DNA of 26,101 nucleotides from a virus (IMGVR_UViG_3300033142_001675:1-26101), one strand, 5' to 3'. Shown: positions 4,701-24,371, numbered from the stretch's first letter. Translations and numbers: made by a program. Notes: a model not told the origin generated them from the letters alone.

Positions 4701-7700
4701 AGGTCAGTCAGAACTTCGAGCTGGCCGACGAGGCATACCGCGCCTACAAGGCCACCGGGGTGATGCCGAACAACGTCGGCATCGGCAACGCGTCCAGCGC
4801 GATCAACGACACCCTGGCCGCGTTCAACACGCTGAAGAAGAAGTTCGGCCTGGAGCAGATGCGCAAGCTGATGCTCAGCATGGGCAAGGCGTCGGTGTTC
4901 GCCAACACCACCGGGATGGAAGTCAGCGGCGAGTTCGCCACCACCGAGGTGCTCGGCGCGTCGGTGCTCGGGCCGAAGATCGGCAACGGGTTCTTCGCCA
5001 ACCTCTACGGGATGTTCGACCAGCTGACGATGGATCGCTGGCTCGTCCGGTCGTGGGGTCGATGGACTGGCACGCTCCTGGTCGAGCGCCCCGACCTCGT
5101 CGCCAAGCAGACTACCCGCTTCGAGTCCGCGCTCACGAAGCTGAGCCCAGAGACCAAGGCCGCGGTCGAGGGTCTCGAAGTGGAGTCGACGGAGGGCCGC
5201 GGCGCCAAGAAGCACAAGGTCACCTACAAGTCGACGGTCAAGTTCGAGGAGGCAACGGTCGAAGAGATCGCTGCCGAGATCACGAAGGCGACCACGAAGA
5301 AGGCGCTGCGCGAGGCGATCCTTGCGCTGGGCCCTGAGGTCAACGAGCTGCGGCTCGCGGCGAACAACCTGACCAAGACCCTCGATGCACAGAAGGAAGC
5401 ACCACACGGCCCATCGGAGCGGATGTTCATCCGCAAGGTGTTCCAGCGGATCCTCGCTCAGTTGCAGCAGGACCCGAAGCTGCGGGACCTCACGATGGCG
5501 GACCTGCAAGCGGTGCTCTGGTATGCCGAGCGCCGGGTCTACGAGTCCGCGAAGGAGGAGACTCTTGTAGACACCGACGTCGCGGGGTATGATGATGAGT
5601 CGGCTCCCGATTACGCCGTCGCCGCTAGCAAGGCGGCTGCTGCCACGGGGGTCACTGACCGCAAGATCAAGAACGCACTACAACGCGAGAAGAAGAATGC
5701 TGGACGCACAAGAACAACACGATCAGGAACTGGCCAAGCGCAAGCCGCCAAGCAAGCGGGCCCTGGATTCAGCCCTCGCGAACTCCGAGTTGTCGCCGGC
5801 CATGCCGCAGCGGGAACAGGAAGACGTGCTCGGCTCGATGGTTCGCAACCATCCTGGGCTGTCGAGAGAAGAAGCCTTGCAAAGAGCGGAGGACGCGGGG
5901 TTCTGAAGAAGAGGCTCGGCGTCCGAGTGGCCGCCGAGTGGAAGTTGGGGAGGGTCCTCGCGAACCGCTACAAGGACGCGGGGATCAACACGAGCGAGCC
6001 GCTCTACGAGCTGGACCCGACGGACGAGGGGTCGGCGCTGCGCTTCGCGGAAGCCATCACCCAGTTCAAGCTCGCGAAGAAGAAGCACGGGGCCTCGGTC
6101 TTCGTCTACCAGCCCGAGGAGTATGCGGGCATGACCCTCATGCTCTCCGCCTCGGGGAAGAGCGGCGTCGCGGTGAAGGCCGACGGCGACATGGTCTCGG
6201 TGTTCTCCGCCGAGGGGATGGCGCGACCGATGGTCGACGCAGCTGTCGCTGCCGGCGCCACGCACGCTGACGCGTTCGACATCGGGCTCTCCGAGCTTTA
6301 CGCCGGGCACGGGTTCAAGGTCATCGCTCGGGCGAAGTGGAGCGACAAGGAAGCTCCGCCCGGCTGGGACAAGAACTACTTCAACAAGCACAACAAGGGC
6401 GAGCCCGACGTCGTGTTCTACGTCGTCGATCACGAATACTTCGACTCCTACCACGGGACCGAAGGCGGCAAGCCCGTCAGCTACGGCACCGCGGTGAAGC
6501 GGCAGAAGGCAGAGTCGCTGCGCTCCGGCACGCCGGACGCACCCCGCGGCGAATACACGCCGGGGGTCGCGTGGCTCAACGAAGAGCACGACGCGACGAC
6601 GCTGCTGCACGAGATGTCGCACCACTTCATGGCTGTCCTGCTGCAACGCGCGACTGCGGATGGGGCCGCGGATTCTGTATTGCAGCAGGCCGCCACTCTG
6701 CTGACGTGGTTCGGCATCGAGGGCGCGACGGTGCAAGAGCAGCTCGCGAACTGGAACGCGATGTCGATCGAAGAGCAGCGTCCACACTGGGAGTCCTTCG
6801 CCAGCAACTTCGAGATCTACCTGCACGAGGGCAAGGCTCCGAGCGTCGAGCTGGAGTCGATCTTCCAGGTCTTCTCGCGTTGGTTCCGTCACGCCTACCG
6901 CTACGTGCGCGAGGTCGTCGCGGCGCAGTATGAGTCTGAGTTCGGCAAGCCGCTGCCGGCGCTGACGCGCGAGGTCACCCAGGTCTACGATCGGATGCTC
7001 GCATCCGAGGACGCGATCCTCGCTGCGCAGACCGAGCGCGGCATGGCCGCCATGTTCGCTGAGAAGCCGCCGGAGTGGTCGGACGAAGCCTGGGCCGAGT
7101 ATCAGAAGGACAACCGGGCATCCACCGAGGATGCGATCCTGAAGCTCACGCGCGCCAGCTTGCGCGCAATGCGCTGGCTCGGCAACGCGAAGAGCCGGCT
7201 GATCAAGGAGATTCAGAAGAGCACGCGCAAGCTCCGCAAGGAGATCGAGGGAGAGGAGCGCGCCAAGCTCGAACGGCAGCCGGTGTATCGCGCACTACGG
7301 TGGCTGCGCACCGGCGAGCAGGTCCGGCAGGACGGGACCTTCGCGACCCCGGTCACCGCGGCCGACATCGGCGAAGCGTTGGGCGCGAGCGCCGCGGACC
7401 AGGGTGCACCGCACAAGCTCGACACGCAGATGGTCAAGGATCTGCTGATGGACGGCGAGAGCGTGACCACGCATATGTCCGGGCTGACGCACCCGAAGGG
7501 GATGCCGCCGGACCTCGCCGCCGAGATGTTCGACTACAACACCGGGGGCGCCCTGGTGTTTGATCTGGCGAACCACACGCCACTCGATGAAGCAGTGCAG
7601 GATGCAGCGGATGCGCGGATGCTCGCCGAGCACGCGGACCTGCTCGACGAGGACACGGTCGCGCGGCGTGTCGAGGAGGTGCTGCACAACGAGCACCGGG

Positions 7701-11609: not shown

Positions 11610-11866
11610 CAGCCCACCGCCTTCCGGCTCGCAGCGAGCGCCCGGGTCACGGTGGACTTCGCACGTTCGAGCACGGTGACGATGCGCTCGACGACGTGGT
11701 CGCTGGGCGTGCGGGTCCCGTCCATCAGGAAGTAGAAGTAGGCGCGGCTGACGCGGCACAGGCGAGCCAGCTCAGTGATCTCCACCGGGGGCTCGCCCTC
11801 CTTACGCCAGTCCTCACGCACGTTGTGCACGAGCTGCTTGAACGTCAGGGTCTTGGTCTTGGTCAT
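11609..11866 (-). CDS. Small helix-turn-helix protein, 85 aa
   Basis: The sequence contains ITELARLCRVSRAYFYFLMD followed by GTRTPSDHVVERIVTVL. This is the helix-turn-helix and following helices of a Cro/CI (XRE)-type DNA-binding domain, with the turn around CRVSRAY. The N-terminus is basic (MTKTKTLTFKQLV). It may regulate early phage transcription, possibly through the paired hexamer elements of this cassette, but that link is only inference. The start ATG overlaps the stop of the 30-aa membrane peptide as ATGA, implying translational coupling. Its own stop overlaps the next start as TGATG. Confidence 0.7.
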   Translation of the reverse strand: MTKTKTLTFKQLVHNVREDWRKEGEPPVEITELARLCRVSRAYFYFLMDGTRTPSDHVVERIVTVLERAKSTVTRALAASRKAVG

Positions 11867-11955
11867 GCGAAGAGGAAGAGTAGGATGATGAGCGCGGCTG
11901 CCACGCAGGGGAAGATGACGCGTTCGATGCGCCAACGTGTTCGACGTGAGAGCAT
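11863..11955 (-). CDS. 30-aa single-pass membrane peptide
   Basis: Starting at ATG 11955, it begins with seven basic or polar residues (MLSRRTRWRIER). It ends in one hydrophobic stretch (VIFPCVAAALIILLFLFA) at the C-terminus, giving a probable N-in, single transmembrane peptide. It begins 5 bases after the polymerase stop, with AGGGA about 10 bases upstream as a ribosome site. It overlaps the next gene as ATGA, so it fills a gap that would otherwise be non-coding. No family is recognised. Small phage membrane peptides of this kind can act on the host envelope or in superinfection exclusion, but nothing here shows that. Confidence 0.6.
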   Translation of the reverse strand: MLSRRTRWRIERVIFPCVAAALIILLFLFA

Positions 11956-11960
11956 AGCTG

Positions 11961-14009
11961 TCATCCCTGGAAGTGTCTACTCCTGTATCCTTCTGCCTCG
12001 ACGGGCAGTCCGTGAGCCCACGCCGGGCTCTCTGCCATGAGGGAGCTGAACTCCTCGACGTCGCCGGCACCCTTGTCCACCTCGGCGATCAGCGAGTCAT
12101 GGACATGCAGCACGATCGGGTAGCAGGTCTCGGCGAACCGGATCTGGCCAGACGCGAGCAGGTCGCGCGAGATCGCCTGGGTGATGTTCTCGGCGAGCTT
12201 CCCGCCGTAGGTGGTCTCGGGCATCATGCCGCCGCCGCCGGCCTTCAAGAACACCAGCTCGTTGGTCTTGATCACCCGCTCTTCGAGCACGCCTTCCTTG
12301 GTCACGATCTCCACCGTGCGCGTCCCGCGCCGACGACGTGGCCGCCAGTAGTGCAGCGACCGCCCGCTCGGCAGCACGATGCGCAGGACCTCCTTGCCGC
12401 AGATCATCGTCAGGTGCTCACCGATCGGGACGTGGGTCCCAGGGTTGTCGAGCGCGGTGCCGAACGCCTCTTCGAGGTCGGACCAGAACTGCACGATGCG
12501 CGGGTTGTTCTCGCGCCAGTTGGTGTGCGCCGCCTTCCACTCCTTCAGGCTGAGGTGGAACCCGGCGTCGGCGCCACGGGCCGCGAGGCTGGCGACGCCC
12601 ATCTGGTAGCCGAGGGACAGCACGCGGACCTTGCCCAGCTGCCTGTCGGTGGAGCCGAACTTCGCCGCGTCCTCGACGTAGACGTCGCGGCCGGCGCGGA
12701 ACGCGTCGAGCACGCCCAGCTCCCCGGCGAGCCACGCCAGGACCCTGGGCTCGATCGCCGAGTAGTCGGCCCCGATCAGCTCCTTCCCGGGGGCCGCGAC
12801 CAGGACCGAGCGGAGCTGCATGGACAGGGCCTGGAGGACGTTGGCCCAGATGGCTCCCAGATCGTCCAGGCTGCCCCGTAGGACAGCGGCACGGATGTCA
12901 GCGGCGCGCTGGACCCCCGCGGACTTCGGCTCTCCTGGGAGCGTGTAGTCGACCTTGGCGAGGTTGTGGACCTGGAGCCCCTTGCTCGACCAGCGCAGGG
13001 TGTGCGCTCCGCCGTAGAGCAGGGCGAACCGGAGGCGCCCGTCAGCCGAGACGATCTGGGGGACCCGGTCCAGCTTGGCCAGGGACGTCGTCTTGGCGCT
13101 CTCACGGCGCATCTCCATGACCTGCCGCACCAACGTCGGGGTCTCGGGCGAGGCGATCAGGCGGCCGACAGCAGCCTTGTCGAGGGTCTCCTTCTCGGTG
13201 ACCTTGCCCTTCTTCCGCTCCTTGACCACCGGGACCTCGACCCCCATGAGCACGAGCCACCGCTTCAGCGCCGGCACCCCGGTGAGACCGATCAGGTCCC
13301 CGGTCAGCTCGAACACGGCGCGGTCGAGCTGCTTGGCCCTGGCCTTGACCAGGACGTGCATCTTGGCAGCGAAGCTCTGGTCGAGGAACACGCCGCGGTC
13401 GTTGATCTCGCGATCGACCTGCATGACGCGCACCTCGGTGCGGGTCGGCCGCGGCAGCTTGTAGTAGCACCCGACCATCGAGACCACGTCGCGCTCGCAG
13501 TAGAGGCCGATGCGCTTGATCTCCTCGGGCGTCGGCTTCGGGTAGTCCCAGCCACCGGTGGCCTTGCTCTTGCGCACCCGGCAGTGCTTGAGCATCAGCG
13601 CGTTGCCCACCATGTCCTTCTCGACCGGGGCACCGATCACCTTGCCGAGGGCTTCGAGGCTGCGCGGCAGACTGAACACCGCGGCGATCTGCGCGGTGTC
13701 GAGCCACTGCCCTGGCTTGACCAAGGGCCAGCCATACTCGCGCGACAACAGGTAGCGGATGATCGAGTGCTCGAACGTCCAGTTGTGCGCAAGGACTGGT
13801 CCCCCGGAGCGAACGTGCCGCACCGCCCAGGCGGGCAGCTCGTCACCGGGGAACCAGCGAATGAGTTCCTTGGGATCGCCGGGACCTACCCAGTCGCCGA
13901 GCACCGCGCAGTGGATGCCCGTCGTCTCGTGCGATGCGTAGGCGTCGGACCCGCACTGGGTGACGTCCATCGCACTGTAGGTCTCGAAGTCGATCCCAAG
14001 AATGGACAC
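11961..14009 (-). CDS. Family A DNA polymerase with 3'-5' exonuclease domain
   Basis: 682 aa, a phage-type family A replicative polymerase. The N-terminal DnaQ-like proofreading domain has Exo I D7-x-E9 (GIDFET), an Exo II-like LAHNWTFEHSI (Glu where Asp is usual) and an Exo III-like YCERDVVSM. The polymerase domain has motif A GADYSAIEPR (catalytic D415), a motif B-like helix with K460 in KVRVLSLGYQMG, and motif C VHDSLIAE (H637, D638). Motif C has Ser where the family usually has HDE. The protein should copy the phage genome together with the PrimPol, helicase and ssDNA-binding protein of this window. It starts 2 bases before the putative sponge gene's downstream end and is followed by the 30-aa membrane peptide, 5 bases on. 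Confidence 0.93.
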   Translation of the reverse strand: MSILGIDFETYSAMDVTQCGSDAYASHETTGIHCAVLGDWVGPGDPKELIRWFPGDELPAWAVRHVRSGGPVLAHNWTFEHSIIRYLLSREYGWPLVKPGQWLDTAQIAAVFSLPRSLEALGKVIGAPVEKDMVGNALMLKHCRVRKSKATGGWDYPKPTPEEIKRIGLYCERDVVSMVGCYYKLPRPTRTEVRVMQVDREINDRGVFLDQSFAAKMHVLVKARAKQLDRAVFELTGDLIGLTGVPALKRWLVLMGVEVPVVKERKKGKVTEKETLDKAAVGRLIASPETPTLVRQVMEMRRESAKTTSLAKLDRVPQIVSADGRLRFALLYGGAHTLRWSSKGLQVHNLAKVDYTLPGEPKSAGVQRAADIRAAVLRGSLDDLGAIWANVLQALSMQLRSVLVAAPGKELIGADYSAIEPRVLAWLAGELGVLDAFRAGRDVYVEDAAKFGSTDRQLGKVRVLSLGYQMGVASLAARGADAGFHLSLKEWKAAHTNWRENNPRIVQFWSDLEEAFGTALDNPGTHVPIGEHLTMICGKEVLRIVLPSGRSLHYWRPRRRRGTRTVEIVTKEGVLEERVIKTNELVFLKAGGGGMMPETTYGGKLAENITQAISRDLLASGQIRFAETCYPIVLHVHDSLIAEVDKGAGDVEEFSSLMAESPAWAHGLPVEAEGYRSRHFQG

Positions 14010-14642: not shown

Positions 14643-14936
14643 CTAGTTCAGGGTGATGAGTGAGGAGCCTGGGGCGTCCGGGTCTTCCTCGGCAGCTTCC
14701 AGCAGTCTCGTCGCGACCGCGTTGGTGGCCAACATGACGCACCACTTGCGGTCGAGACTTTCCTTGTTGATGCAGCGCACGGTGAGCACGCGACCGCGCA
14801 ACTCCGCGTTCGACAACGCGGATGCGAACTCGGCGAAGTTGGTGTGCACCGCGGTGACGAACGCGTCCATCACGTCCTCCGGCCCCGGCTGCTCTTCCTC
14901 TTCGTCGAAGGGATTCCTGTCGCGTGTCCCAGCCAC
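14643..14936 (-). CDS. Hypothetical protein, 97 aa
   Basis: Not recognised. The N-terminus is strongly acidic (NPFDEEEEQPGPEDVMDAF), followed by a compact alpha/beta-like segment (RGRVLTVRCINKESLDRKW). It starts with GTG that shares one base with the TAG of the DUF2815 gene (TAGTG), so it is translationally coupled to the ssDNA-binding protein. Its position between the ssDNA-binding protein and the putative sponge suggests a replication or accessory role, but no motif supports a specific one. Confidence 0.65.
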   Translation of the reverse strand: MAGTRDRNPFDEEEEQPGPEDVMDAFVTAVHTNFAEFASALSNAELRGRVLTVRCINKESLDRKWCVMLATNAVATRLLEAAEEDPDAPGSSLITLN

Positions 14937-15511
14937 TACTCGAACATCGCGTTGGGGTCTTCGTCGACTTCGGCGTCGGCGTCGAGGTCGGCGACGTCCA
15001 TCTCCAGCGGGTCGAAGACCTCACCGGTGACGACGCGTCCGTCGAGGCGCTCGCCCTCGCGCACGATCTGGATCGCGTTGAGGCCGAAGCTCACGCCCTT
15101 GGTCTTGGTCTTCGGGTAGAACCACGCGAACGCGTTGATGTGTGCGCGCACCCACAGCCCTGGGTAGCACCGATCAGGATCGGTGACCGGGGTCTTGGTC
15201 TGGTCGACCACCGCGGGGCGCGTGGTCCCGTGCATCGCGAGGAAGTGCCAGTCCTCGTCGTAGCCGGCGAAGTCCTTCTCGTCGGCGTCCTTGATCGGGT
15301 TCTTGACCTTGATCACCTTCTCCCACTTCTCGATCATCGCCGCCTTCATGGCAGCAACGAACGGGGCGAAGTCGGTGTCCGGCGGGAACAGCAGAGTGCA
15401 CTGGAACTCGTCGCCCTTGTCGAAGTAGGGCTTGGGCTCGAAGAGCACGGGGAAGGAGAGCCGGCACTCCGGCGTGATGATGTGACTCGCGGTCAGCTTT
15501 ACGTTGCTCAT
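14936..15511 (-). CDS. DUF2815 single-stranded DNA-binding protein
   Basis: 191 aa. The pattern of DUF2815 is clear: an opening beta region (LSFPVLFEPK, F.CTLLFPPD), a central Lys-rich helix, then a segment with DRCYPGLWVRAHINAFAWF and VSFGLNAIQIVREGERLDGR. The last about 20 residues are acidic (DVADLDADAEVDEDP) and end in an aromatic residue. That is the hallmark of phage gp2.5-like ssDNA-binding proteins that use the tail to contact polymerase and helicase. The family occurs in phage/prophage modules with family A polymerase, DUF2800 and SNF2 helicase, exactly as here. It lies downstream of an unusual 124-bp structured leader with no obvious ribosome site. Confidence 0.88.
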   Translation of the reverse strand: MSNVKLTASHIITPECRLSFPVLFEPKPYFDKGDEFQCTLLFPPDTDFAPFVAAMKAAMIEKWEKVIKVKNPIKDADEKDFAGYDEDWHFLAMHGTTRPAVVDQTKTPVTDPDRCYPGLWVRAHINAFAWFYPKTKTKGVSFGLNAIQIVREGERLDGRVVTGEVFDPLEMDVADLDADAEVDEDPNAMFE

Positions 15512-15635
15512 GATTCTGAGGGTTCAGGGTTCAGGGTTCAGGGTTGAAGACCCGGCTCGGGTTTGCCGCTAGGGCTTGGTGTCGGTCAGAAGATGGAGGG
15601 AAAGAGCACCCCAAGCCGGGTCAGGAAACACGTGT
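15512..15635 (-). promoter_or_regulatory. Structured leader with two mutually exclusive hairpins upstream of the ssDNA-binding protein gene
   Basis: In the - strand transcript, the 5' arm (15622 down to 15611) can pair with either of two later segments. One is CCAAGCC at 15579-15573 (7 bp); the other is AGCCGGGTC at 15557-15549 (9 bp). Both use overlapping bases of the same arm, so the two folds exclude each other. A heptamer repeat follows, then the ATG at 15511. No clear Shine-Dalgarno or promoter is seen. This could be an attenuator-like or translational control of the ssDNA-binding protein, or a processing site. No U-tract follows either fold. Confidence 0.4.
15519..15545. repeat. Tandem heptamer AGGGTTC, about four copies
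   Basis: Three perfect AGGGTTC units and a fourth ending in G lie directly upstream of the ssDNA-binding protein start (GAACCCT on the coding strand). It may be a slippage-prone spacer that changes the distance to the start codon, or a protein-binding iteron. It is the only tandem short repeat I noticed in the intergenic DNA. Confidence 0.8.
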
Positions 15636-15872
15636 CTACAGATCGTCTTCGTCCTCGTCAAGCAGGGTGTGTGCAACCGGCTCGTGACCAGGACTGGGTG
15701 TCGGGTTGAGGGAGCAGTCGTCGCAGACGAAGGACTTGCACCCGTAGCAGTAGTTGTCGTCGGTCATGCCCTTCGCGCGGCAGATGCGGCACAGCTTGAG
15801 GTCACGCGATGCGATCGCCCAGGCGATCTCGAAGCGCGCGTCCTCGCTGTCTGCGCTACGACGGGAGGACAT
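15636..15872 (-). CDS. Small zinc-finger protein, 78 aa
   Basis: Three CxxC pairs (CRIC, CYGC, CDDC) with spacers of ten and four residues, followed by GHEPVAH, form a probable two-zinc treble-clef or RING/FYVE-like fold. Small phage proteins with YCYGC..FVCDDC are familiar from many genomes; their role is not established. The C-terminus is acidic (LLDEDEDDL). The ATG at 15872 (MSSRRSADSED) was chosen; it overlaps the nuclease stop by 17 bases. A longer start at 15893 is possible. Its TAG falls inside GTAGAC, a single half of the hexamer element. Confidence 0.75.
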   Translation of the reverse strand: MSSRRSADSEDARFEIAWAIASRDLKLCRICRAKGMTDDNYCYGCKSFVCDDCSLNPTPSPGHEPVAHTLLDEDEDDL

Positions 15873-17025: not shown

Positions 17026-17297
17026 CAGAGTTCCCTGGCTGGCATCTGCATCACGATGCTGCGCAGCTCATTGCAGAGGCTGCCGAGGAGTTCGGGAATC
17101 GTGCTGCCGCTGCCTTCTTCGATCTCCCGTTGGCGTGCCATATCGCGAACCACATCGAGGGACTCGGTGACGTCGATGATCTCCTCGGCGAAGTGGATAC
17201 GTGTGCCGTCGTCGATCTTCTCCGCCTTGAGGGCGTTGTCCCAGTTGACCAAGACCGTTTCGTCGCCGGGCGTAGTGAGGTCGAGAGTGTTGCTCAC
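17025..17297 (-). CDS. Hypothetical protein, 90 aa
   Basis: Not recognised. It is acidic and helical, with a beta-like opening (TVLVNWDNALKAEKIDDGTR) and a C-terminal helix (LLGSLCNELRSIVMQM). The GTG start overlaps the stop of the preceding short frame as GTGA. The stop overlaps the DUF2800 start as TGATG, so expression is linked to the nuclease. Confidence 0.65.
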   Translation of the reverse strand: MSNTLDLTTPGDETVLVNWDNALKAEKIDDGTRIHFAEEIIDVTESLDVVRDMARQREIEEGSGSTIPELLGSLCNELRSIVMQMPAREL

Positions 17298-17461
17298 GAC
17301 GCGACTTCCCGCGCCTTCGCGAGTGCGGCCAGGAACTTGGGGTAGCTCGCCTCGGGCAGGTCGGAGAGCTTGGCGATCTTGAACTTCTTGAAGATCTTCC
17401 GGGTCGGGGTGTCGCCGACGGCGTCGAGGGTCTCGCGCAGTCCGGTGCGCAGGTCGTCCAT
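17294..17461 (-). CDS. Short phage domain downstream of an in-frame amber; 55 aa from ATG 17461
   Basis: The frame gives MDDLRTGLRETLDAVGDTP, then KIFKKFKIAKLSDLPEASYP and KFLAALAKAREVAS. It resembles a short C-terminal module seen in many phage proteins (DDLR..L...., FG..KLSDLPE..Y..FL..L). The same frame is open back to 17524 without another ATG or GTG. Immediately before that lies the TAG that ends the upstream gene, also in this frame. The stop overlaps the next gene as GTGA, which suggests it is translated. It is either a separate gene starting at 17461 or the second half of one 136-aa gene cut by the amber. Confidence 0.6.
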   Translation of the reverse strand: MDDLRTGLRETLDAVGDTPTRKIFKKFKIAKLSDLPEASYPKFLAALAKAREVAS

Positions 17462-17524
17462 CGTGGCCTCGGCCTCGGTCTCGGTGGCGTCGTCGAGGAA
17501 GTCCTCGACGGGCGTGGCCGCTGC

Positions 17525-17704
17525 CTACGTGGCCGCCTTCTTGGTGGCGCGGCGTGCCGGCGGCTTGGCGGCGGCGGGCGCGGCAGGCGGCGCGGCGGGC
17601 TCTGTCGTGAGGCTCGCGGGCGTGAGCCCGGCGAGAAGGACAAGCGCCTTGGCGGCGACGTCTGCGGGGGCGGTGAACGAGACTGTGATCTGTGGGATGG
17701 TCAT
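17525..17704 (-). CDS. Ala/Pro-rich small protein ending at an in-frame amber, 59 aa
   Basis: It starts at ATG 17704 (MTIPQITVSFTAPADVAAKA). The N-terminal half is beta/alpha-like, followed by a low-complexity linker (PAAPPAAPAAAKPPARR, ATKKAAT) that stops at TAG 17527-17525. Downstream of the TAG the same frame continues the linker (AAATPVEDFLDDATETEAEA) into a conserved-looking domain. A single C-to-T change of CAG to TAG would explain the break. A TTG in the promoter could extend the N-terminus, but the -35 role explains that better. Function unknown. Confidence 0.6.
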   Translation of the reverse strand: MTIPQITVSFTAPADVAAKALVLLAGLTPASLTTEPAAPPAAPAAAKPPARRATKKAAT

Positions 17705-17715
17705 TGGAGAGTCAG

Positions 17716-17744
17716 GTTGTAGAGGTTGGTAGACGGGTGTCAAC
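17716..17744 (-). promoter_or_regulatory. Promoter and paired-hexamer element for the nuclease operon
   Basis: On the - strand, TTGACA (17743-17738), 16 bp, then TACAAC (17721-17716), 11 bases before ATG 17704. Expected transcription would start about 4-5 bases before the ATG, so the mRNA may be leaderless. The paired element is GTCAAC 17739-17744 and GTAGAC 17729-17734, start to start 10 bp, with the second half inverted compared with other copies. The TGA of the upstream gene is part of the -35 box. Confidence 0.5.
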
Positions 17745-18213
17745 GGGTAGCGTGAACGAGTTTCACCTCGCGCAAGGGGATCGCCGCCCAGCCAGACTTG
17801 GGCTCAGGCATGGCCGCGGCGAACGCTTTGAGAATCCACCAGCACCCCTTGATTGTGGTGCGGCGGCGGAGCGGGAGCATCTGGCAGACTACGAACAGGT
17901 CCTCGTTGCCCGCGGCGTTGATGACGTTGATGCCCTTGGGCACAAGGACCTTGACCTTCCCCTTCGGGACGTTGATCGGCTTCAGGTGTGCGAGCTTGAC
18001 ACGCGGGCCCTTGATCAGGCGGCGCAGCTCGGGGTCCAGCCCCTCGGTGATTGCATCGATGGTGTCGAAGAGCACCGCGGGATCTGGTCGCAGGGGGAAC
18101 GGCTTTCGTTGAGTCATGATGGGTTCCACTTCGTTGAGGTAGTCACGAACGGCGCACGCGAGCACGCCGAAGTTGCGGCCCCGGAGGGCCGCGATGCGTT
18201 GGGCGTTAGTCAT
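17740..18213 (-). CDS. Hypothetical protein, 157 aa
   Basis: Not recognised. It has an N-terminal helical part (MTNAQRIAALRGRNFGVLAC) and a middle with PDPAVLFDTIDAITEGLDPE. A Lys/Val beta-rich region follows (INVPKGKVKVLVPKGINVIN) and a Trp-containing end (GCWWILKAFAAAMPEP). The ATG at 18213 overlaps the upstream stop as ATGACTAA. A second ATG at about 18118 could give a shorter form. The TGA stop is embedded in the next promoter's TTGACA. Confidence 0.65.
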   Translation of the reverse strand: MTNAQRIAALRGRNFGVLACAVRDYLNEVEPIMTQRKPFPLRPDPAVLFDTIDAITEGLDPELRRLIKGPRVKLAHLKPINVPKGKVKVLVPKGINVINAAGNEDLFVVCQMLPLRRRTTIKGCWWILKAFAAAMPEPKSGWAAIPLREVKLVHATR

Positions 18214-19366
18214 GGTGGACGCGGCCCGGGTTGTCGCGGCGCCACTGCGCGTGGCCTGAGTTCTGCTGCCGCGCACGGTCGCAGTCGACGCACCGCTTGT
18301 CCACCACCGGGGTCCCGTGGATGCCGCACGTCGTCGGCTTGACGGGCGCGGTGTCGATCCCGTCGGCGGCGTCGCGCTCGGCGCGCACGCTCTTGATCAC
18401 ATACTGCGTGCAGGCGTTGTTGGGGTCGCCGTTGACCAGCTCGGTCTCGTAGATCTCCAGGTCATCGAGCCCGACGATGGCGGCGAGCACGGACTCGCGC
18501 AAGGCAACGGGGTAGCTCCCCAGCACGCATTCGAGGATGCCGAAGTCGTGGCCGTTGCCGCTCGACTCAGCGTGCAGCCGCTCGCGCAGCTTGACCGTGT
18601 CGATGAGGTGGCCACCAACATCGACCGACGCGTGCGCCTGCTCGACCTTGCCCGCGGCCTCGACCTCGGGGTCGATGTCCCCCCAGGGGAGGCCGAACTT
18701 GCCGGCGCAGATCGGACCGTAGCCGACCGAGCGCGACTCCTTGGTCGAGAGGTCGCGGTTGCAGAAGCAGCAGACGCCGGTGGCGACGCCGTGCTGCGAC
18801 GCGACCTTCTGCGGGTCGGCGGCCAGCTCGCGCAGCGCGGCGAGCACCTCGACGGTGCAGGCGCGGGCGGCGGTGAAGCTGCCGTTCGGGGTGATGTAGC
18901 CGAACCACTTGTTCTCGCCGTAGGGCTTGCCGTCGGTCACGTTGACCGAGCCGGGGTTGCGGGCCTTCGACCCGGCGAGGGTCAGCGCGACCTTGACGCC
19001 GTGCGAGACGACGACGATCTTCGGGTTGCGCTTCTGCGCCCCGGCAGCCCGGGTCAGCAGCTCGACGATCGGCGCGAGGTTGACGTCGGACAGGCTGTGG
19101 TCCTGCTTCGGCGCGGCGGGCTTGCTGCCGTCGGTCGCCAGCTTGTGGATCCAGGCGGCCTGCTTCGGCGAGAGCTTGCGATCCTTCGCGGCGACCAGCA
19201 GGTCCCCGGCGAACTCGCTGCCCTTGCCGCCGGACTTGACGATCGCGACCTGCTGGTCCTTCAGCGCGTGCCACGCCACAGCTAGGGTCTCGAACTTGGA
19301 GGTGAAGGTGATGTCCTGGCCGCGCGCGGTGACGGTGAAGGACGGGAAGGTTTCGTTGGTTGCCAT
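18206..19366 (-). CDS. DUF6011-like zinc-binding phage protein, 386 aa
   Basis: An N-terminal beta-rich part (FPSFTVTARGQDITFTSKFE) is followed by LSPKQAAWIHKLA, a stretch common in phage proteins. The central domain contains C199, C200 and C202 followed by SVGYGPICAGKFG. This is the DUF6011 zinc-ribbon signature (CxxC..L....S...G.GP.C). A second Cys group, CGIHGTPVVDKRCVDC, lies at about 347-362. The role is unknown; a nucleic-acid or protein-binding role is inferred from the zinc sites. I prefer ATG 19366 (MATNETF); ATG 19375 is possible. A reading from TTG 19402 would translate the promoter. Confidence 0.75.
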   Translation of the reverse strand: MATNETFPSFTVTARGQDITFTSKFETLAVAWHALKDQQVAIVKSGGKGSEFAGDLLVAAKDRKLSPKQAAWIHKLATDGSKPAAPKQDHSLSDVNLAPIVELLTRAAGAQKRNPKIVVVSHGVKVALTLAGSKARNPGSVNVTDGKPYGENKWFGYITPNGSFTAARACTVEVLAALRELAADPQKVASQHGVATGVCCFCNRDLSTKESRSVGYGPICAGKFGLPWGDIDPEVEAAGKVEQAHASVDVGGHLIDTVKLRERLHAESSGNGHDFGILECVLGSYPVALRESVLAAIVGLDDLEIYETELVNGDPNNACTQYVIKSVRAERDAADGIDTAPVKPTTCGIHGTPVVDKRCVDCDRARQQNSGHAQWRRDNPGRVHHD

Positions 19367-19373
19367 GCGGACC

Positions 19374-19403
19374 ATGAAAGGGCTTTCGTCTACTGGTGTC
19401 AAC
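19374..19403 (-). promoter_or_regulatory. Promoter and paired-hexamer element for the DUF6011-like gene
   Basis: On the - strand, TTGACA (19402-19397), 17 bp, then a weak TTTCAT (19379-19374), 7 bases before ATG 19366. A transcript would begin at or next to the ATG. The paired element GTCTAC 19388-19393 and GTCAAC 19398-19403 is a direct repeat at 10 bp. The TAG of the upstream gene (19405-19403) touches the element. Confidence 0.5.
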
Positions 19404-19609
19404 TAGCTGAAGCTGGATTTCTGAACTTTTCCTGATCGGACCAACCGGGCCACCGCGTTCTTCACCGCGCGATGGTCGCTGGGGGTCCCTGGCAGCAGCA
19501 CCAGGGGGCCGCCGCCCGGGGGGTAGCACTTGATGTGGCCGCGGCGGGTGGGCACCACGCGCCACCCTGCGGCCACCAGGACCCGGAGGATCTTGTTGAT
19601 GCAGTCCAC
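19403..19609 (-). CDS. HicA-like small protein, 68 aa
   Basis: The pattern ILRVLVAAGWRVVPTRRGHI, then YPPGGGPLVLLPGTPSDHRA and VKNAVARLVRSG matches the HicA/YcfA dsRBD-like fold, with the probable catalytic His in RRGHIK. HicA proteins are ribosome-linked mRNA interferases when paired with HicB. No HicB-like gene is next to it, so a toxin-antitoxin role is doubtful here. The GTG start shares one base with the upstream TAG (TAGTG). A longer upstream reading overlaps the metalloprotease gene and is Arg-rich. Confidence 0.7.
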   Translation of the reverse strand: MDCINKILRVLVAAGWRVVPTRRGHIKCYPPGGGPLVLLPGTPSDHRAVKNAVARLVRSGKVQKSSFS

Positions 19610-20022
19610 TAGAGAATCCCCTGGTCGCGCATCGCGCGCCGCAGTGCGACCGCGGCCAGCTCGCCGAACCACTGGCGCACGAGGGTCAGGTAGGTAGCAC
19701 AGTATCGTCGATCGTGGTGCGCCCCAGCAGGCGCGCAGAGATGGGCCACCTCGTGCAGCAGCAGCCCCTGGCTCACCGGGCCAGGGGGCAGGTCGATGTG
19801 CCCCTCAGCGACGCGTGCGAGCGCGCACGAGGTCATCTGCGGTGCGCCCCTGGTCACGGTGATGTAGATGTTCGGCAGCTTGCACCGGGCGCGCAGCGAC
19901 GAGAACGTGTAGTCGTGCGTGACGTGGTCAACCCAGAGCTGCGGGTTGGGGACCAGCTCGCCGAACACGTGGCACTGCGGCCACGCGATGTTCTCGGCCC
20001 GGTAGAGTGGACAGTCGTTCAT
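19609..20022 (-). CDS. Small zincin metallopeptidase, 137 aa
   Basis: It contains LLLHEVAHLCAPAGAHHDRR followed by YCATYLTLVRQWFGE. This is a HExxH zinc motif with a further His eight to nine residues on, as in compact phage and actinobacterial metallopeptidases annotated only as putative. Several Cys residues lie in the N-terminal half (MNDCPLYRAENIAWPQC). It may cleave a host or phage protein; the target is unknown. The start overlaps the DUF2786 stop as ATGA. No signal peptide is seen. Confidence 0.75.
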   Translation of the reverse strand: MNDCPLYRAENIAWPQCHVFGELVPNPQLWVDHVTHDYTFSSLRARCKLPNIYITVTRGAPQMTSCALARVAEGHIDLPPGPVSQGLLLHEVAHLCAPAGAHHDRRYCATYLTLVRQWFGELAAVALRRAMRDQGIL

Positions 20023-20783
20023 CGGACCGAGTTCCTTCCGAGGCTGACGCTGCCGCCGCGCGAGCCACCGGTGCCGTAGGCAGACTGGTTGCGCGAGCAG
20101 CGCGTCGCGCGACCCTTGCCCAGGCCGAGCTTCTTGGACTTCACCGAGAGGGCGCGCTCGTGGTGCACCTCGGACTCGCCGAGGACGATCAACGCCATCG
20201 GGCCGGAGGGCCGCTCGACCTCGATGGTCTCCTCGCTGCGCAGCCGGTCGGCCTTCTCCTTCTGCGCTCGCTTGAGCAGCGCGTGCGACCACCCGTCGGC
20301 GAACGATCGCCCGGTGAGGGTGCTCTGGGGCACGCCGCGCTCGCGGCAGTAGGTCTTGCGGTCGGCGCGCATCTTCGCCGCGGCCCAGACGAACAGCTCC
20401 TTGCACACGGCGACGTCGGTCGGCAGGCCGTAGGCGACCAGGACCTTCTTGCTGGTGAGCAGGCCCTTCGCGTTGGTGAAGCTGCGCCAGCTGTGGTAGA
20501 TGCCGCAGCCGCACGCAGCGGCGCACGCCATCCCGACCCAGCCATCCTGCCGGATCTTCCGGTCAACGATCGTCTCGGTGACCATGTCGTCGGCGTCGAC
20601 CCTGCCGGCGGCCCGGGCCTCGTCCTTGGCGAACGCCGCGACGTCGCGCTCGGTCACCCGGTGCGCGGCCATTAGCCGCTGCGCGATCGTGAGTGCGGTC
20701 TGCGCTTCCGCGGGCGTTGCGCCAGAGTCGGCGCTGGTGGTCAGCAGCTTGCGGACCTTACTGATGATGTCTGCGTTGGTCAC
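20019..20783 (-). CDS. DUF2786 protein, 254 aa
   Basis: The N-terminal ISKVRKLLTTSADSGATPAE, then AQTALTIAQRLMAAHRV, is the DUF2786 signature. A C-terminal part with GMACAAACGCGIYHSW, LVAYGLPTDVAVCKELFVWA and FADGWSHALLKRAQ looks like the domain that often follows it (DUF7168 type). The tail is basic (KSKKLGLGKGRATR, CSRNQSAYGTGG). Such proteins are frequent in phages and bacteria and have no proven role. The GTG at 20783 overlaps the previous stop as GTGA. Confidence 0.82.
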   Translation of the reverse strand: MTNADIISKVRKLLTTSADSGATPAEAQTALTIAQRLMAAHRVTERDVAAFAKDEARAAGRVDADDMVTETIVDRKIRQDGWVGMACAAACGCGIYHSWRSFTNAKGLLTSKKVLVAYGLPTDVAVCKELFVWAAAKMRADRKTYCRERGVPQSTLTGRSFADGWSHALLKRAQKEKADRLRSEETIEVERPSGPMALIVLGESEVHHERALSVKSKKLGLGKGRATRCSRNQSAYGTGGSRGGSVSLGRNSVR

Positions 20784-21052
20784 TGGAACAGCTCCTCGGA
20801 GTCGTTGGACTTGGGCTTCGCACGCCACACCGTCTCGGCATCGACGTGCATCGGGACGCAGCCGCTCGCGATGTTGAGCAGCTCGCACAACTGGTGATGA
20901 CCCTTCGGGTCGAGCTTGACGACGCGCACGTCGGTCATGCCGACGAGGTCGCCGACGCGACGACCGAGGGCGATGGCTTCGTCGCGACGGACGAAGAACT
21001 GGTTGCACTCGTTCGTCTTCAGGGACGTCGCGAGCATTGCGTAGAAGATCAT
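20780..21052 (-). CDS. Hypothetical protein, 90 aa
   Basis: Not recognised. It starts at ATG 21052 (MIFYAMLATSLKTNECNQF), with GAGGAG about 9 bases upstream of the ATG. The middle is alpha/beta-like (DEAIALGRRVGDLVGMTDVR, VVKLDPKGHHQLCELLNIA) and the C-terminus acidic (SNDSEELFQ). It is coupled to the DUF2786 gene through GTGA. Confidence 0.65.
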   Translation of the reverse strand: MIFYAMLATSLKTNECNQFFVRRDEAIALGRRVGDLVGMTDVRVVKLDPKGHHQLCELLNIASGCVPMHVDAETVWRAKPKSNDSEELFQ

Positions 21053-21056
21053 GGTT

Positions 21057-21203
21057 CTAGTTCTCCTCGAAGCAGCGGATGCACTGGCCGTCGCCACAGG
21101 CTTCTTCGGTCAGGGTCAGGGCTTCGCCGCAGGCGACGCACGACGCTTCGCTCATCGGGACGGCGGGCATGGGGAAGGTGCGGGGTTTGATGTCGGTGGT
21201 CAT
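21057..21203 (-). CDS. Cys-rich 48-aa protein (zinc-knuckle-like)
   Basis: The short frame from ATG 21203 gives MTTDIKPRTFPMPAVPMSEA, then SCVACGEALT, LTEEACGDGQ and CIRCFEEN. The Cys pattern C22-x2-C25, C36 and C41-x2-C44 would hold one zinc. AAGGAA lies 4 bases before the ATG, giving a good ribosome site. It is the first gene after the paired-hexamer promoter at 21226-21264. Its TAG lies 4 bases before the next ATG. An overlapping reading from 21240 in another frame is Arg/His-rich and was rejected. Confidence 0.7.
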   Translation of the reverse strand: MTTDIKPRTFPMPAVPMSEASCVACGEALTLTEEACGDGQCIRCFEEN

Positions 21204-21225
21204 TGGGTTCCTTGGTGAGCTGGAG

Positions 21226-21264
21226 ATCATGCACATCCATCGGCTGTCGTCAACTGGTGTCTAC
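21226..21264 (-). promoter_or_regulatory. Promoter and paired-hexamer element for the 48-aa gene and downstream operon
   Basis: On the - strand, TTGACG (21253-21248), 16 bp, then CATGAT (21231-21226), a weak sigma70-like pair. The paired element GTCAAC 21249-21254 and GTCTAC 21259-21264 is a direct repeat at 10 bp. Unlike the other copies, this unit has a normal ribosome site (AAGGAA) and a leader of about 15-20 bases. Confidence 0.45.
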
Positions 21265-21273
21265 TGGATTTCC

Positions 21274-21306
21274 AAAAAAGAATCGCCCACCCCCGAAGGG
21301 GTGAGC
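21274..21306 (-). terminator. Rho-independent terminator with UUCG loop
   Basis: The - strand transcript forms a 9-bp stem, GCUCACCCC / GGGGUGGGC (one G-U pair), closed by a UUCG tetraloop. GAUUC and six U follow. It lies 8 bases after the stop of the 94-aa gene at 21315 and upstream of the next promoter, so it ends that short transcription unit. Confidence 0.85.
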
Positions 21307-21314
21307 GAACCGGA

Positions 21315-21599
21315 CTACTCTGCCCAGTCCTCGCCGCGGCGCAGCAGCTCGTCGACCTTCGTCGCCGAGACGTCGCCCCAGACGTGGCCAATGCGGAAGT
21401 CGTCCGAGACATCGAGCACGACGATGTCATCCAGGATGGTCTCGTCAGTGTCGTCGGCGCACTTCACGGCCTCACTCCAGAGCCCCCAGGCTTCGGCGAA
21501 CGACTCAGCATGTGCCCAGCGGTTGTGGCCGAGCAGGATGTAGTTGCCGTTCTTCGGCACCTCGGGGATGGAAGCGACCGCAGTCGGTAGCGTCTTCAT
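21315..21599 (-). CDS. Hypothetical acidic protein, 94 aa
   Basis: Not recognised. From ATG 21599 it reads MKTLPTAVASIPEVPKNGNY, ILLGHNRWAHAESFAEAWGL, WSEAVKCADDTDETILDD, and later RIGHVWGDVSATKVDELL. It is Trp- and Asp/Glu-rich with no Cys cluster. CTGGAG lies 5 bases before the ATG. It is the only gene of the cassette with its own promoter, long leader hairpin and intrinsic terminator. That suggests expression apart from its neighbours, a feature often seen for early anti-host or regulatory genes (inference). Confidence 0.7.
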   Translation of the reverse strand: MKTLPTAVASIPEVPKNGNYILLGHNRWAHAESFAEAWGLWSEAVKCADDTDETILDDIVVLDVSDDFRIGHVWGDVSATKVDELLRRGEDWAE

Positions 21600-21618
21600 G
21601 TGAACTCCAGTTGTCAAA

Positions 21619-21650
21619 GATCCGCGAGCAGCGAGTCCGCTCGCGCGATC
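21619..21650 (-). promoter_or_regulatory. Leader hairpin of the 94-aa gene
   Basis: Between promoter and start codon, GATCCGCGAGC (21619-21629) pairs with GCTCGCGCGATC (21639-21650), giving 11 bp with one bulge and a 9-base loop. It lies about 20 bases upstream of the ATG. It may stabilise the transcript or influence access to the ribosome site. Confidence 0.5.
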
Positions 21651-21653
21651 CTC

Positions 21654-21721
21654 CATTGTATCACAATGTCAACCAATGTCTACAACCAAGTTGTAACAAG
21701 GATGTGACAACTCGTGTCTAC
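21654..21721 (-). promoter_or_regulatory. AT-rich control region: sigma70-like promoter, two palindromes, two paired-hexamer elements
   Basis: On the - strand, TAGACA (21682-21677), 16 bp, then TACAAT (21660-21655), the best promoter of the cassette. Inverted repeats CATTG-TATCA-CAATG (21654-21668, over the -10) and TACAAC-CAA-GTTGTA (21681-21695, over the -35) look like operators. Paired hexamers lie at 21668-21683 (GTCAAC, GTCTAC) and, weaker, at 21706-21721 (GACAAC, GTCTAC). The last overlaps the TAG of the upstream gene. The region is clearly less GC-rich than its surroundings. Confidence 0.6.
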
Positions 21722-21990
21722 TAGTCACCGAACACGTAGTCGACGATCGTCTTCCCTGGGTGACCTTCCTTGCTGGCGCTGAACTCGACCGCACGGACGA
21801 GCAGTTTGACGTCATCCACCACGATCGTGTCGCCGACGCGCGGCACCGCCGGCAACGTCAGGACGAGGTAGTTAGGGCCCTCTTCGAGCTTCTTCAGGAA
21901 CGCGATGGTCTCGACTGCTTCCGCGCCGAGGCCGCTCCAGTCCTCGTTGAGCCCGGCCTCGTCCATGCACATCATGTGAATCTCGATCAT
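21721..21990 (-). CDS. Hypothetical protein, 89 aa
   Basis: Not recognised. It begins MIEIHMMCMDEAGLNEDW. The second half is beta-rich (YLVLTLPAVPRVGDTIVVDD, VKLLVRAVEFSASKEG), as in small phage proteins with a barrel-like fold. The ATG overlaps the upstream stop as ATGA. A longer reading from 22158 is Arg-rich and was rejected. It is the last gene of the helicase operon. Confidence 0.65.
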   Translation of the reverse strand: MIEIHMMCMDEAGLNEDWSGLGAEAVETIAFLKKLEEGPNYLVLTLPAVPRVGDTIVVDDVKLLVRAVEFSASKEGHPGKTIVDYVFGD

Positions 21991-22460
21991 GATCGTGGCC
22001 CTGGCGCGAGACGCTTGGCCAGGGCGACGCCGAGCGCCTGCCCCATGTCCTCGATCGCGCGGGTGCGCAGGTCGTCGACAGTCTCGCGCTTCTCCATCAG
22101 CATCATCACTGCGTCGAGGTGCTTGTCGACGGCGAGCGTGTCGCCGCACGGGGTGCACAGGGCGCTCGGCACCGAGAACGGTCGCGCCCGCATCGACATC
22201 GAGAGGACCTCGAACGCGTCCTTCCCGTCCTTGCCGCAGGGCTTCAGCTGCCGGCCCATGTCGAGCAGCTCGAAGCTCCAGCGCGTCACTGCCGGCGAGT
22301 AGACCTTCTCCCAGAGCTTGTCGCGTTGCCCTGCGATGTTCTCGATCATGGCGTCACGGGGCTCGTAGTGTCCCCCGTGCGGGCACCGGCGGAACGCGGA
22401 GATGACATCGCGCCAGATGCGGCGCGCGAGTCTGAAGTAGTGAACGAGTCGGCGGATCAT
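21987..22460 (-). CDS. Hypothetical protein with scattered Cys/His, 157 aa
   Basis: Not recognised. The basic, aromatic N-terminus (MIRRLVHYFRLARRIWRDVI) could be an amphipathic membrane-binding helix. It is followed by CPHGGHYEPRD, a single Cys (LKPCGKDG) and a CTPCGD pair, which together may bind zinc. The C-terminal half is helical (LDAVMMLMEKRETVDDL). Start and stop overlap the neighbours as ATGA. Confidence 0.65.
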   Translation of the reverse strand: MIRRLVHYFRLARRIWRDVISAFRRCPHGGHYEPRDAMIENIAGQRDKLWEKVYSPAVTRWSFELLDMGRQLKPCGKDGKDAFEVLSMSMRARPFSVPSALCTPCGDTLAVDKHLDAVMMLMEKRETVDDLRTRAIEDMGQALGVALAKRLAPGPRS

Positions 22461-22684
22461 TGCCCCATCTCCTCTGCGCTGGCTTTCTCCGCCTGCTGCA
22501 CTTCCGCCACCCTGGCCTCGATGCGGGCGTCACGGGAGCAGGTAGCAGGGCGGCCACCTATCGCGACCCACAACTCGTCGATGAGTCGCACGCCTTCGAT
22601 GTCGCCCATGAGGACGCTGAGCATATCGGGGTGGTTTTTGATGTGCTTGAGTAGCGAGAGGGCTGCGTCTCTTGGTGTTCTCAT
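22457..22684 (-). CDS. Hypothetical helical protein, 75 aa
   Basis: Not recognised. From ATG 22684 it reads MRTPRDAALSLLKHIKNHPD, MLSVLMGDIEGVRLIDELW, then an Ala/Glu-rich helix (RIEARVAEVQQAEKASAEEM). Both ends overlap neighbouring genes as ATGA. A longer version from 22804 overlaps the helix-turn-helix gene and was rejected. Confidence 0.6.
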   Translation of the reverse strand: MRTPRDAALSLLKHIKNHPDMLSVLMGDIEGVRLIDELWVAIGGRPATCSRDARIEARVAEVQQAEKASAEEMGQ

Positions 22685-22863
22685 TGTCTCGGTCCTGGCT
22701 GGTGTTGCAGCAGAGCTTCGTCGAGCGACTTGCGCACGAGGAACTCGCTGACGTTGAAGTGTGCCGCGGTCTCGCTGACCGAGGCGTCGTTTGTGGTGTG
22801 CCACTCGGCGATGCGTTGGCGGAGAGCGCGTCGCTCTTCGTAGATGCCTCTGGTCTTGGTCAC
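22681..22863 (-). CDS. Small helix-turn-helix protein, 60 aa
   Basis: The segment SVSETAAHFNVSEFLVRKSL is a typical helix-turn-helix, with the turn at FNVSE. Basic helices precede it (YEERRALRQRIAEWH). It resembles the DNA-binding part of transposase- or sigma-like proteins and is probably a small regulator. GTG start at 22863, overlapping the helicase stop as GTGA. Confidence 0.65.
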   Translation of the reverse strand: MTKTRGIYEERRALRQRIAEWHTTNDASVSETAAHFNVSEFLVRKSLDEALLQHQPGPRQ

Positions 22864-24218
22864 TTGACGATGCTCCTGATCATCTCGGTCTTGCGTTGAA
22901 GGATCTCGACCAGCAGCTCATCGACGCTGCCGGCGAGGGAGAAGGTGCGGACCAGGACAGATGTGTCCTGCCCGATGCGATGGCAGCGCGCCGCGGCCTG
23001 GGCGTTGTCGCCCGGGACGAACGACTGCTCGACGAAGAAGACGTTGCTCGCGGCAGTCAGCGTGATGCCGATGCCACCAGCGACGATGTTGCAGAGGGCG
23101 ACGCGCGTCTGCGGCTGCGCCTGGAAGTCGTTGACCAGGGTAGTGCGCAGCGCGGCCGGCGTCGCCCCGGTGATGCACACGGGGTCGGACTCGATGAGGG
23201 TCTGTTCGAGGTGACCGATCACGTCCTTGTGATGCGCGAACACGACAGCCTTCTGCCCAGGGTTGTCCGCCAGCCACTCGGTGAGATACTCACCGGCGGC
23301 CTCGGCCTTGGCCATGCCGCAGAGCCGACGCCACGTGCTGAACTCGACCTCGTCGCGCAGCTTCGCGATCGCCTGCTGCGGGCTCAGCCTGCTGAGGCCG
23401 AGCTTCTTCTCCAGGGCGACCAGCTCCTTCGGCAGGCTCTCGGGAGTCAGCGTGATCGTGCCGAACCGGATCGGCGGCAGGTCGAGCGTGCCCTTCACCG
23501 TGCGACGCAGCGAGAACCCCTTGAGCCGCTCGCGCAGCTCCCTGGTGTTGCGCGAGCCGACCACCTTCCATCCGTCGCCGTAGTCGCTCGGCTTCAGCTT
23601 GCAGTATTGCCGGCGGAACTCGATGAAGCGCATCGGCTGCGGCTCCAGCTCGATCGTCGCATCGAACTCCTTGGCGATGCGCTCGGGTGCGATGCCGGTG
23701 AGGTGCGTCCACAGCTCGGTCGGATCGTTCGGCATCGGCGTCCCGGTGAGCAGCCACACGCGGTCGGCGCACTCGACCAGACCAGTGGTCCCGCGCTTCA
23801 GCCCGTAGAGAACGTCGACCCTCTTGGCCTTCTTGCTCTTGAAGAACTGAGCCTCATCGACGATCAGCGAGTCCCACCGGAGTGCACTGAGCTGCGCCTG
23901 GATCTTCGCATTGAGCAGCAACCCGTGCGTGACGATCACGAACTCGGTGCGCGCGTTGAGCACGACCTTCCCGGTGTCGATCAGCTGGACACTAGATCCA
24001 GGGGCCCACATGCCGATCTCACGCTTCCAGTTGTGGAGCACGCTGGTCGGGACCACAACGAGGTGGCAGCCGCGGCCACCGTAGAGCTTGCGAACGGACT
24101 CCTTCGCGGCGACGATGGCGCACGCGGTCTTGCCCAGGCCCTGCTCGTCGAACAGGCCGCCGCGGGGGTGAGCTAGAAGCCAGTCTACGCCGGCACGCTG
24201 GTGGGGGTATAGGTCCAT
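22860..24218 (-). CDS. SNF2-type DEAD-box helicase/translocase
   Basis: 452 aa, a compact superfamily 2 SNF2 ATPase. Motif Q/I: YPHQRAGVDWLL and D24EQGLGKT31. Motif Ia VVVPTSVLHNWK. Motif II DEAQ 121-124. Motif III LLTGTPMPN (about 156-164). Motif V GGIGITLTAASNVFF. Motif VI QAAARCHRIGQ at 407-417. Phage enzymes of this size accompany DUF2800, DUF2815 and family A polymerase and are thought to remodel DNA at forks or in recombination. I see no accessory domain. The ATG at 24218 lies only 11 bases after the -10 box, with no ribosome site, suggesting a leaderless message. It is divergent from the PrimPol gene. Confidence 0.92.
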   Translation of the reverse strand: MDLYPHQRAGVDWLLAHPRGGLFDEQGLGKTACAIVAAKESVRKLYGGRGCHLVVVPTSVLHNWKREIGMWAPGSSVQLIDTGKVVLNARTEFVIVTHGLLLNAKIQAQLSALRWDSLIVDEAQFFKSKKAKRVDVLYGLKRGTTGLVECADRVWLLTGTPMPNDPTELWTHLTGIAPERIAKEFDATIELEPQPMRFIEFRRQYCKLKPSDYGDGWKVVGSRNTRELRERLKGFSLRRTVKGTLDLPPIRFGTITLTPESLPKELVALEKKLGLSRLSPQQAIAKLRDEVEFSTWRRLCGMAKAEAAGEYLTEWLADNPGQKAVVFAHHKDVIGHLEQTLIESDPVCITGATPAALRTTLVNDFQAQPQTRVALCNIVAGGIGITLTAASNVFFVEQSFVPGDNAQAAARCHRIGQDTSVLVRTFSLAGSVDELLVEILQRKTEMIRSIVK

Positions 24219-24371
24219 CGGGACGATGCATACTAGCGTCTACCGAACCCGTGTCAACAGGTGCTGGACACGACCACCCCAGATCGCTAGCGTCGGCAGA
24301 CCCCCAGCCCATGAAAAAACGACGCCGCCAAGCCCTTTGCCAGACGACGCCGTTGGGGTGGGTGACACCCG
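24219..24371. promoter_or_regulatory. Divergent spacer between helicase and PrimPol genes
   Basis: It holds the helicase promoter on the - strand: TTGACA 24257-24252, 16 bp, TAGTAT 24235-24230. The hexamers GTCTAC 24238-24243 and GTCAAC 24253-24258 occur at 15 bp instead of 10. A 9-bp direct repeat ACGACGCCG lies at 24319-24327 and 24344-24352. A small hairpin GGGT-GAC-ACCC at 24360-24370 lies one base before the PrimPol ATG. No clear + strand promoter is visible. The position between the two replication genes makes it a possible origin, but no AT-rich unwinding element is evident. Confidence 0.45.

Follow-up and report, generated by a model that had tools for sequence, protein, structure and literature searches.

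Paired GTWGAC hexamers one helical turn apart overlie predicted promoters of an uncultivated phage and most likely mark a shared operator

Why does one pair of hexamers, held one helical turn apart, stand before gene block after gene block in a phage replication region? The question is raised by a 26.1-kb stretch of DNA with 65% GC, a phage genome fragment that makes up a whole IMG/VR record and is called the window here. Its leftward replication module encodes a SNF2-type helicase, a DUF2800 nuclease, an Enc34-type ssDNA-binding protein and a family-A DNA polymerase. The right end of the window carries a divergent AAA gene, and a polyvalent protein of 2,933 aa is encoded on the other strand. 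Microcystis phage Mae-Yong1326-1 shares a similar replication gene order at about 32–36% identity, and no closely related cultured phage was found. The window was unmatched in a near-DNA search among cultured phages, its helicase alone gave no usable relatives in a protein search, and the sole match of its polymerase was a near-identical contig. When species genomes were searched with the terminase to find the host, the best matches were at most 50% identical and came from unrelated metagenome-assembled genomes. Rfam gave no family in the window, and the loci scanned for tRNAs had none.

A preliminary description of the window had claimed that two related hexamers recur 10 bp apart at operon starts, and this was confirmed by enrichment, shuffling and a spacing survey. 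GTWGAC-N4-GTWGAC has three exact copies in the window, every one on the leftward strand and in a gene-start region. When up to one mismatch was allowed, six pairs were found against a shuffle mean of 0.14, and none of 100 shuffles reached six. Among spacings from 6 to 30 bp, exact direct pairs occurred three times at 10 bp, once at 15 bp and nowhere else. GTAGAC was the top hexamer at spacing 10 in an unbiased survey, and GC-rich coding-type hexamers topped the other spacings. Single GTWGAC hexamers are also enriched (48 versus 17.7 expected) and lie mostly inside coding DNA, so the pair is diagnostic and the lone hexamer is not. The paired element is present at nearly every gene-block start in the replication region, and all eight window sites (A to H) point the same way as transcription.

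Nearly all of these sites overlap sigma70-like predicted promoters, several of them apparently leaderless; all -35 and -10 assignments are consensus matches. Three of the five 10-bp pairs listed in the preliminary description are exact direct repeats. Site A (19366–19403, minus strand; pair at 19388–19403; GTTGACACCAGTAGAC; matrix score 21.2) carries the predicted promoter TTGACA-17-TTTCAT, and the ATG at 19366 is approximately at the expected transcript start of a leaderless DUF6011 gene. Site B (21226–21264, minus strand; pair at 21249–21264; GTAGACACCAGTTGAC; score 26.5) carries TTGACG-16-CATGAT, in which the predicted -35 box is the second hexamer. At site C (21655–21683, minus strand; pair at 21668–21683; GTAGACATTGGTTGAC; score 21.4) the first hexamer is the predicted -35 box of TAGACA-16-TACAAT and the spacer holds the second. 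The fourth pair, site D (21706–21721, minus strand; GTAGACACGAGTTGTC; score 18.9), adjoins site C upstream and has one mismatch. The fifth, site E (17704–17744, minus strand; pair at 17729–17744; GTTGACACCCGTCTAC; score 12.5), keeps the 10-bp spacing but is not a direct repeat, its second hexamer being inverted (GTTGAC-N4-GTCTAC); the predicted promoter is TTGACA-16-TACAAC. Between sites C and B lies a unit of one gene that ends in an intrinsic terminator (21283–21308, minus strand; z = -4.3). The site-C transcript leader (21604–21660, minus strand) has a strong predicted hairpin (z = -3.7), and the short gene behind it matches no PHROGs family. At 17294–17704 (minus strand), a 136-codon open frame is broken by one in-frame TAG at codon 60; because TAG serves as an ordinary stop in the rest of the window, it looks like a nonsense change or an assembly error.

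A 15-bp version had also been listed at 24238–24258. Its hexamers are indeed 15 bp apart (site F, 24230–24258, minus strand; GTTGAC-N9-GTAGAC; matrix match at 24243, score 13.1), but the element is weak as a pair. It lies in a predicted promoter, TTGACA-16-TAGTAT, ahead of the gene for the SNF2 helicase (ATG at 24218); this promoter is convincing by its consensus matches, and the hexamer pair is the weakest of the set. Two sites were added to the earlier list. Site G (11951–11990, minus strand; pair at 11975–11990; GGATACAGGAGTAGAC; score 16.4) has the predicted promoter TAGACA-17-TATGCT, which lies at the polymerase gene's 3' end. Site H (15624–15639, minus strand; GTAGACACGTGTTTCC; score 12.9) precedes the ssDNA-binding-protein gene (14936–15511), and no clear -10 box was found there by consensus matching. 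The second halves of sites F, H and E are degenerate, displaced or inverted, and these weak pairs are listed because of their position and matrix score. The stop codon of the previous gene had been thought to be often built into the element. This holds for TAG at 19403 (A) and 21721 (D), TGA at 17740–17742 (E) and also TAG at 15636–15639 (H), but no stop codon lies in the element at 21264 (B) or 21683 (C).

The relatives G001 (locus L057), G002 (locus L058) and L266 were found by helicase and terminase profile searches in which the motif was not used; G003, G004, G005 and G006 entered through motif scans and were left out of the independent evidence. A matrix was trained solely on the relatives found by protein homology and then run on the window. 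Its best four matches were sites B, C, A and D, followed by 11990 (G), a coding match at 5557 (plus strand), 24243 (F), 15639 (H) and 17744 (E). Nine matches scored at least 12 versus 0.66 expected, and eight of the nine were at leftward gene starts. The pair does not occur as often within coding DNA, since the match at 5557 was the sole one of this strength away from a gene start. The leftward cluster has seven gaps of more than 30 bp; with a slightly larger training set, six of them contained a match and the seventh was matched at its edge; column-permuted matrices never matched more than two of the seven. In the reverse test, a matrix built from the window only found five sites in G001 versus 0.15 expected, three in G002 versus 0.07 and four in L266 versus 0.07, each of them directly before a start codon. 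The sites, their spacing and their overlap with promoter-like sequences are conserved in these related phages, whose helicases are 44–48% identical to that of the window. The gene-start bias and these copies support the phage-specific operator or activator site proposed in the preliminary description, which was to coordinate several early units. Conservation has its limits, however, as G007 and G008 lack the pair, and so do about nine records that are more distant; at 10-bp spacing no alternative hexamer stood out in G007, G008 and the other relatives. When the whole collection was scanned for the exact 16-mer, mostly single chance matches were returned, and only L031 was shown to be of the same family.

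The position of the pair relative to the predicted promoter takes three registers. In the first, the pair covers the -35 box and the spacer (sites A and C; G001, G004 and G005). The five G001 copies read GTAGACA-N3-GTAGAC-N7-TANNCT-N6/7-ATG; here the first hexamer would be the -35 box, the second would lie in the spacer, and the transcript would begin at or very near the ATG. G004, which overlaps G001 at the ssDNA-binding gene and is 100% identical there, has three further sites of this type. In the second register the pair lies upstream of and includes the -35 box (sites B and G; L266), and in all but one of the L266 sites the -35 box is the second hexamer, for example GGAGACACCCGTTGACA-N17-TTCAAT ahead of ATG. 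In the third, found in G002, the near-identical G006 and one L266 site, the pair is reversed and covers the spacer and the -10 box (TTGACN-N17-TCTACT-N6/7-ATG). The pair motif could serve to predict promoters and start codons when related contigs are annotated. Several short G001 genes between the terminase and portal genes have a hairpin and T-run upstream, which gives promoter-gene-terminator cassettes.

Could the pair simply reflect a doubling of the -35 box in ordinary promoters, preserved by chance or through promoter turnover? One hexamer does resemble TTGACA, and tandem TTGACA-like words are also found singly in unrelated phages. However, the spare copy is misplaced as a -35 box for the existing -10 box and yet holds the 10-bp phase, and it is reversed in G002 and G006. 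In none of the registers does the second hexamer serve sigma70, so a duplicated -35 box cannot account for it, and we consider this explanation highly improbable. Because the pair slides and flips relative to the -35 and -10 boxes at a constant 10-bp spacing, it is better understood as an operator than as a part of the core promoter.

Most likely a phage regulator uses the element as a common on/off switch. Judged from the sequences, it is probably a multi-copy phage operator, at which a phage HTH protein would bind both half-sites and repress the promoters together. The two GTWGAC half-sites, normally a direct repeat one helical turn apart (consensus about GTAGACACCNGTWGAC), would be laid over the sigma70-like promoters of replication operons and of single-gene accessory units. 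A protein or dimer could read two major grooves on one DNA face, 10 bp apart, and the bound HTH protein would occlude the -35 box, the spacer or the -10 box, by which the promoters would be switched off together. Repression is favoured because the predicted promoters, with 5–6 of 6 matches in the -35 box and normal spacers, look able to fire unaided. Occlusion is favoured because, whatever the register, core promoter elements lie under the operator. Several mediocre -10 boxes (TTTCAT, CATGAT) count against the operator model. The window and nine related records yielded no integrase, so these ten records do not imply a lysogeny repressor, and a Cro-like early shut-off is no less likely. The bound protein, its mode of action (repressor or activator) and the 'early' timing are what we infer from these features.

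An activator site is unlikely, although one register resembles known cases. A protein on the direct repeat over the -35 box and spacer would recruit RNA polymerase, as SARP or lambda CII does, and TAGACA is a slightly weak -35 box. The lambda CII site is TTGC-N6-TTGC, with direct repeats one turn apart flanking the -35 box. The window pairs are likewise one-turn direct repeats around the -35 box, but here one repeat is the -35 box itself; the CII site is absent from the window, and no CII homologue (PF05269) was found in nine records. SARP (AfsR) sites are direct repeats 11 bp apart that overlap the -35 box and lie 8 bp from the -10 box (PMC10936776). In the commonest register here, the one-turn repeat also covers the -35 box and spacer, and its downstream hexamer ends 7 bp before the -10 box. 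Unlike SARP sites, the pair has no fixed register or orientation (it is reversed in G002 and G006 and shifted in L266 and at sites B and G), and the -35/-10 spacing is normal. The OmpR/SARP-type domain Trans_reg_C (PF00486) was found in none of the nine records, which are fragments, and a host protein of this type could still act.

G007 separates the operator from the promoter. It is near G001 in its replication genes (SNF2 70%, DUF2800 58%) and keeps a comparable promoter with GTAGACA as the -35 box, a -10 box and a leaderless ATG, and only the second hexamer is degenerate. The pair is missing from G007, the closer relative of G001 and G002 by replication genes, yet present in the more distant window, so the site does not track phage lineage, a point against the operator model. 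The same pattern could suggest that phages of related hosts have borrowed the site of a host transcription factor, as the 16-mer is common to phages with helicases about 47% identical and missing in a phage closer to one of them. But operators at nearly every start within the window's replication cluster are typical of phage-encoded control, and phage HTH genes are located in the same clusters, which makes a host factor improbable.

As is general for phage operators, the repeated site lies over several predicted phage promoters and is kept in relatives. The L5-type stoperator has a 13-bp consensus of the GGTGGMTGTCAAG type, and this had no match in the window with up to two mismatches. Cluster A mycobacteriophages (L5, TipsytheTRex) carry many asymmetric sites per genome at promoters and in short intergenic spaces, each read by a repressor monomer through two DNA-binding domains (PMC9283540). 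The window phage also has multiple intergenic or promoter copies, but its site is one hexamer twice, and its orientation flips between phages (G002 and G006 reversed, L266 mixed), whereas L5 sites lose function if reversed (PMC9283540). HTH phage repressors usually bind palindromes and direct-repeat operators are uncommon; the P2 C operator, bound by an HTH repressor, has direct-repeat half-sites at a phage promoter (PMC4752584). Its repeats are 8 bp long and 22 bp apart centre to centre at one promoter, whereas the present repeats are 6 bp long, spaced by 10 bp, and stand at many promoters. The putative operator would act much as the L5 multi-site and P2 C operators do but fails sequence or geometry tests of both. 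Cluster O mycobacteriophages have 17-bp intergenic repeats genome-wide, with some predicted promoters leaderless (PMC4351075). Unlike the window pair, the cluster O motif is palindromic, about one third of its copies are in coding DNA and most are not near promoters (PMC4351075). A direct-repeat operator at several promoters, fixed in its one-turn phase but free in its register, would make an instructive counterpart to P2 C, CII and the mycobacteriophage stoperators.

Two proteins are candidate regulators of the proposed operator. HTH-A, an 85-aa XRE-like protein (11612–11866, minus strand; HTH_31 at 26.0 bits, just below the cut-off of 27), has its gene directly downstream of the polymerase gene in the window and in G004 and G007. 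A site-bearing promoter precedes its gene in the window (site G) and in G004, where the operon has a leaderless promoter with the related pair GTTGACA-N3-GGGGAC. HTH-A could thus plausibly control its own promoter in the manner of Cro. Its recognition-helix segment reads VSRAYFYFLM and VSRAHLYNLM in the site-bearing phages and VHKSQLYRNF in G007, which lacks the pair, even though the full-length G004 protein is nearer to that of G007. The likeness of the recognition helix appears to track the presence of the pair, which is suggestive in a comparison of three sequences. The double-HTH protein, with 117 aa, two HTH_31 domains and a predicted model of pLDDT 92, has its gene between those for the AAA protein and the terminase in G001, G002, G006 and G007; its counterpart in the window would lie beyond the right end. 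Foldseek searches with this model gave weak HTH matches only, none with E below 0.001. As sole regulator it was rejected, because the recognition helices of G001 (with sites) are nearer to those of G007 (no pair) than of G006 (with sites), and six homologue loci (L355–L360) have no GTWGAC pair. This protein is thus not favoured over HTH-A. It is quite unlikely that one two-HTH chain reads the one-turn repeat as a monomer, as part of a regulator-operator pair moving between diverged phages in three registers over leaderless accessory-cassette promoters. For uncultivated phages in which no regulator had been annotated, the analysis supplies a predicted operator, a list of genes that would be co-regulated and two candidate regulators.

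Some further repeats were observed in other contigs. Repeated cassettes of a pair promoter, a short leaderless gene and a terminator occupy L057 1–2145 and L254 1–1100; these single-gene cassettes sit between the terminase and portal genes, and many of their proteins begin with MNN. In G007, 11 repeat copies at 30-bp spacing lie inside a glycine/aspartate-rich protein frame (L257, about 1997–2483). In other phage contigs, perhaps through convergent or related use of a doubled -35 word, one promoter-like GTTGACANNNGTTGAC-N7-TANNNT site each is present: L143, L164, L181, L182, L187, L189, L191, L193, L241 and L243.
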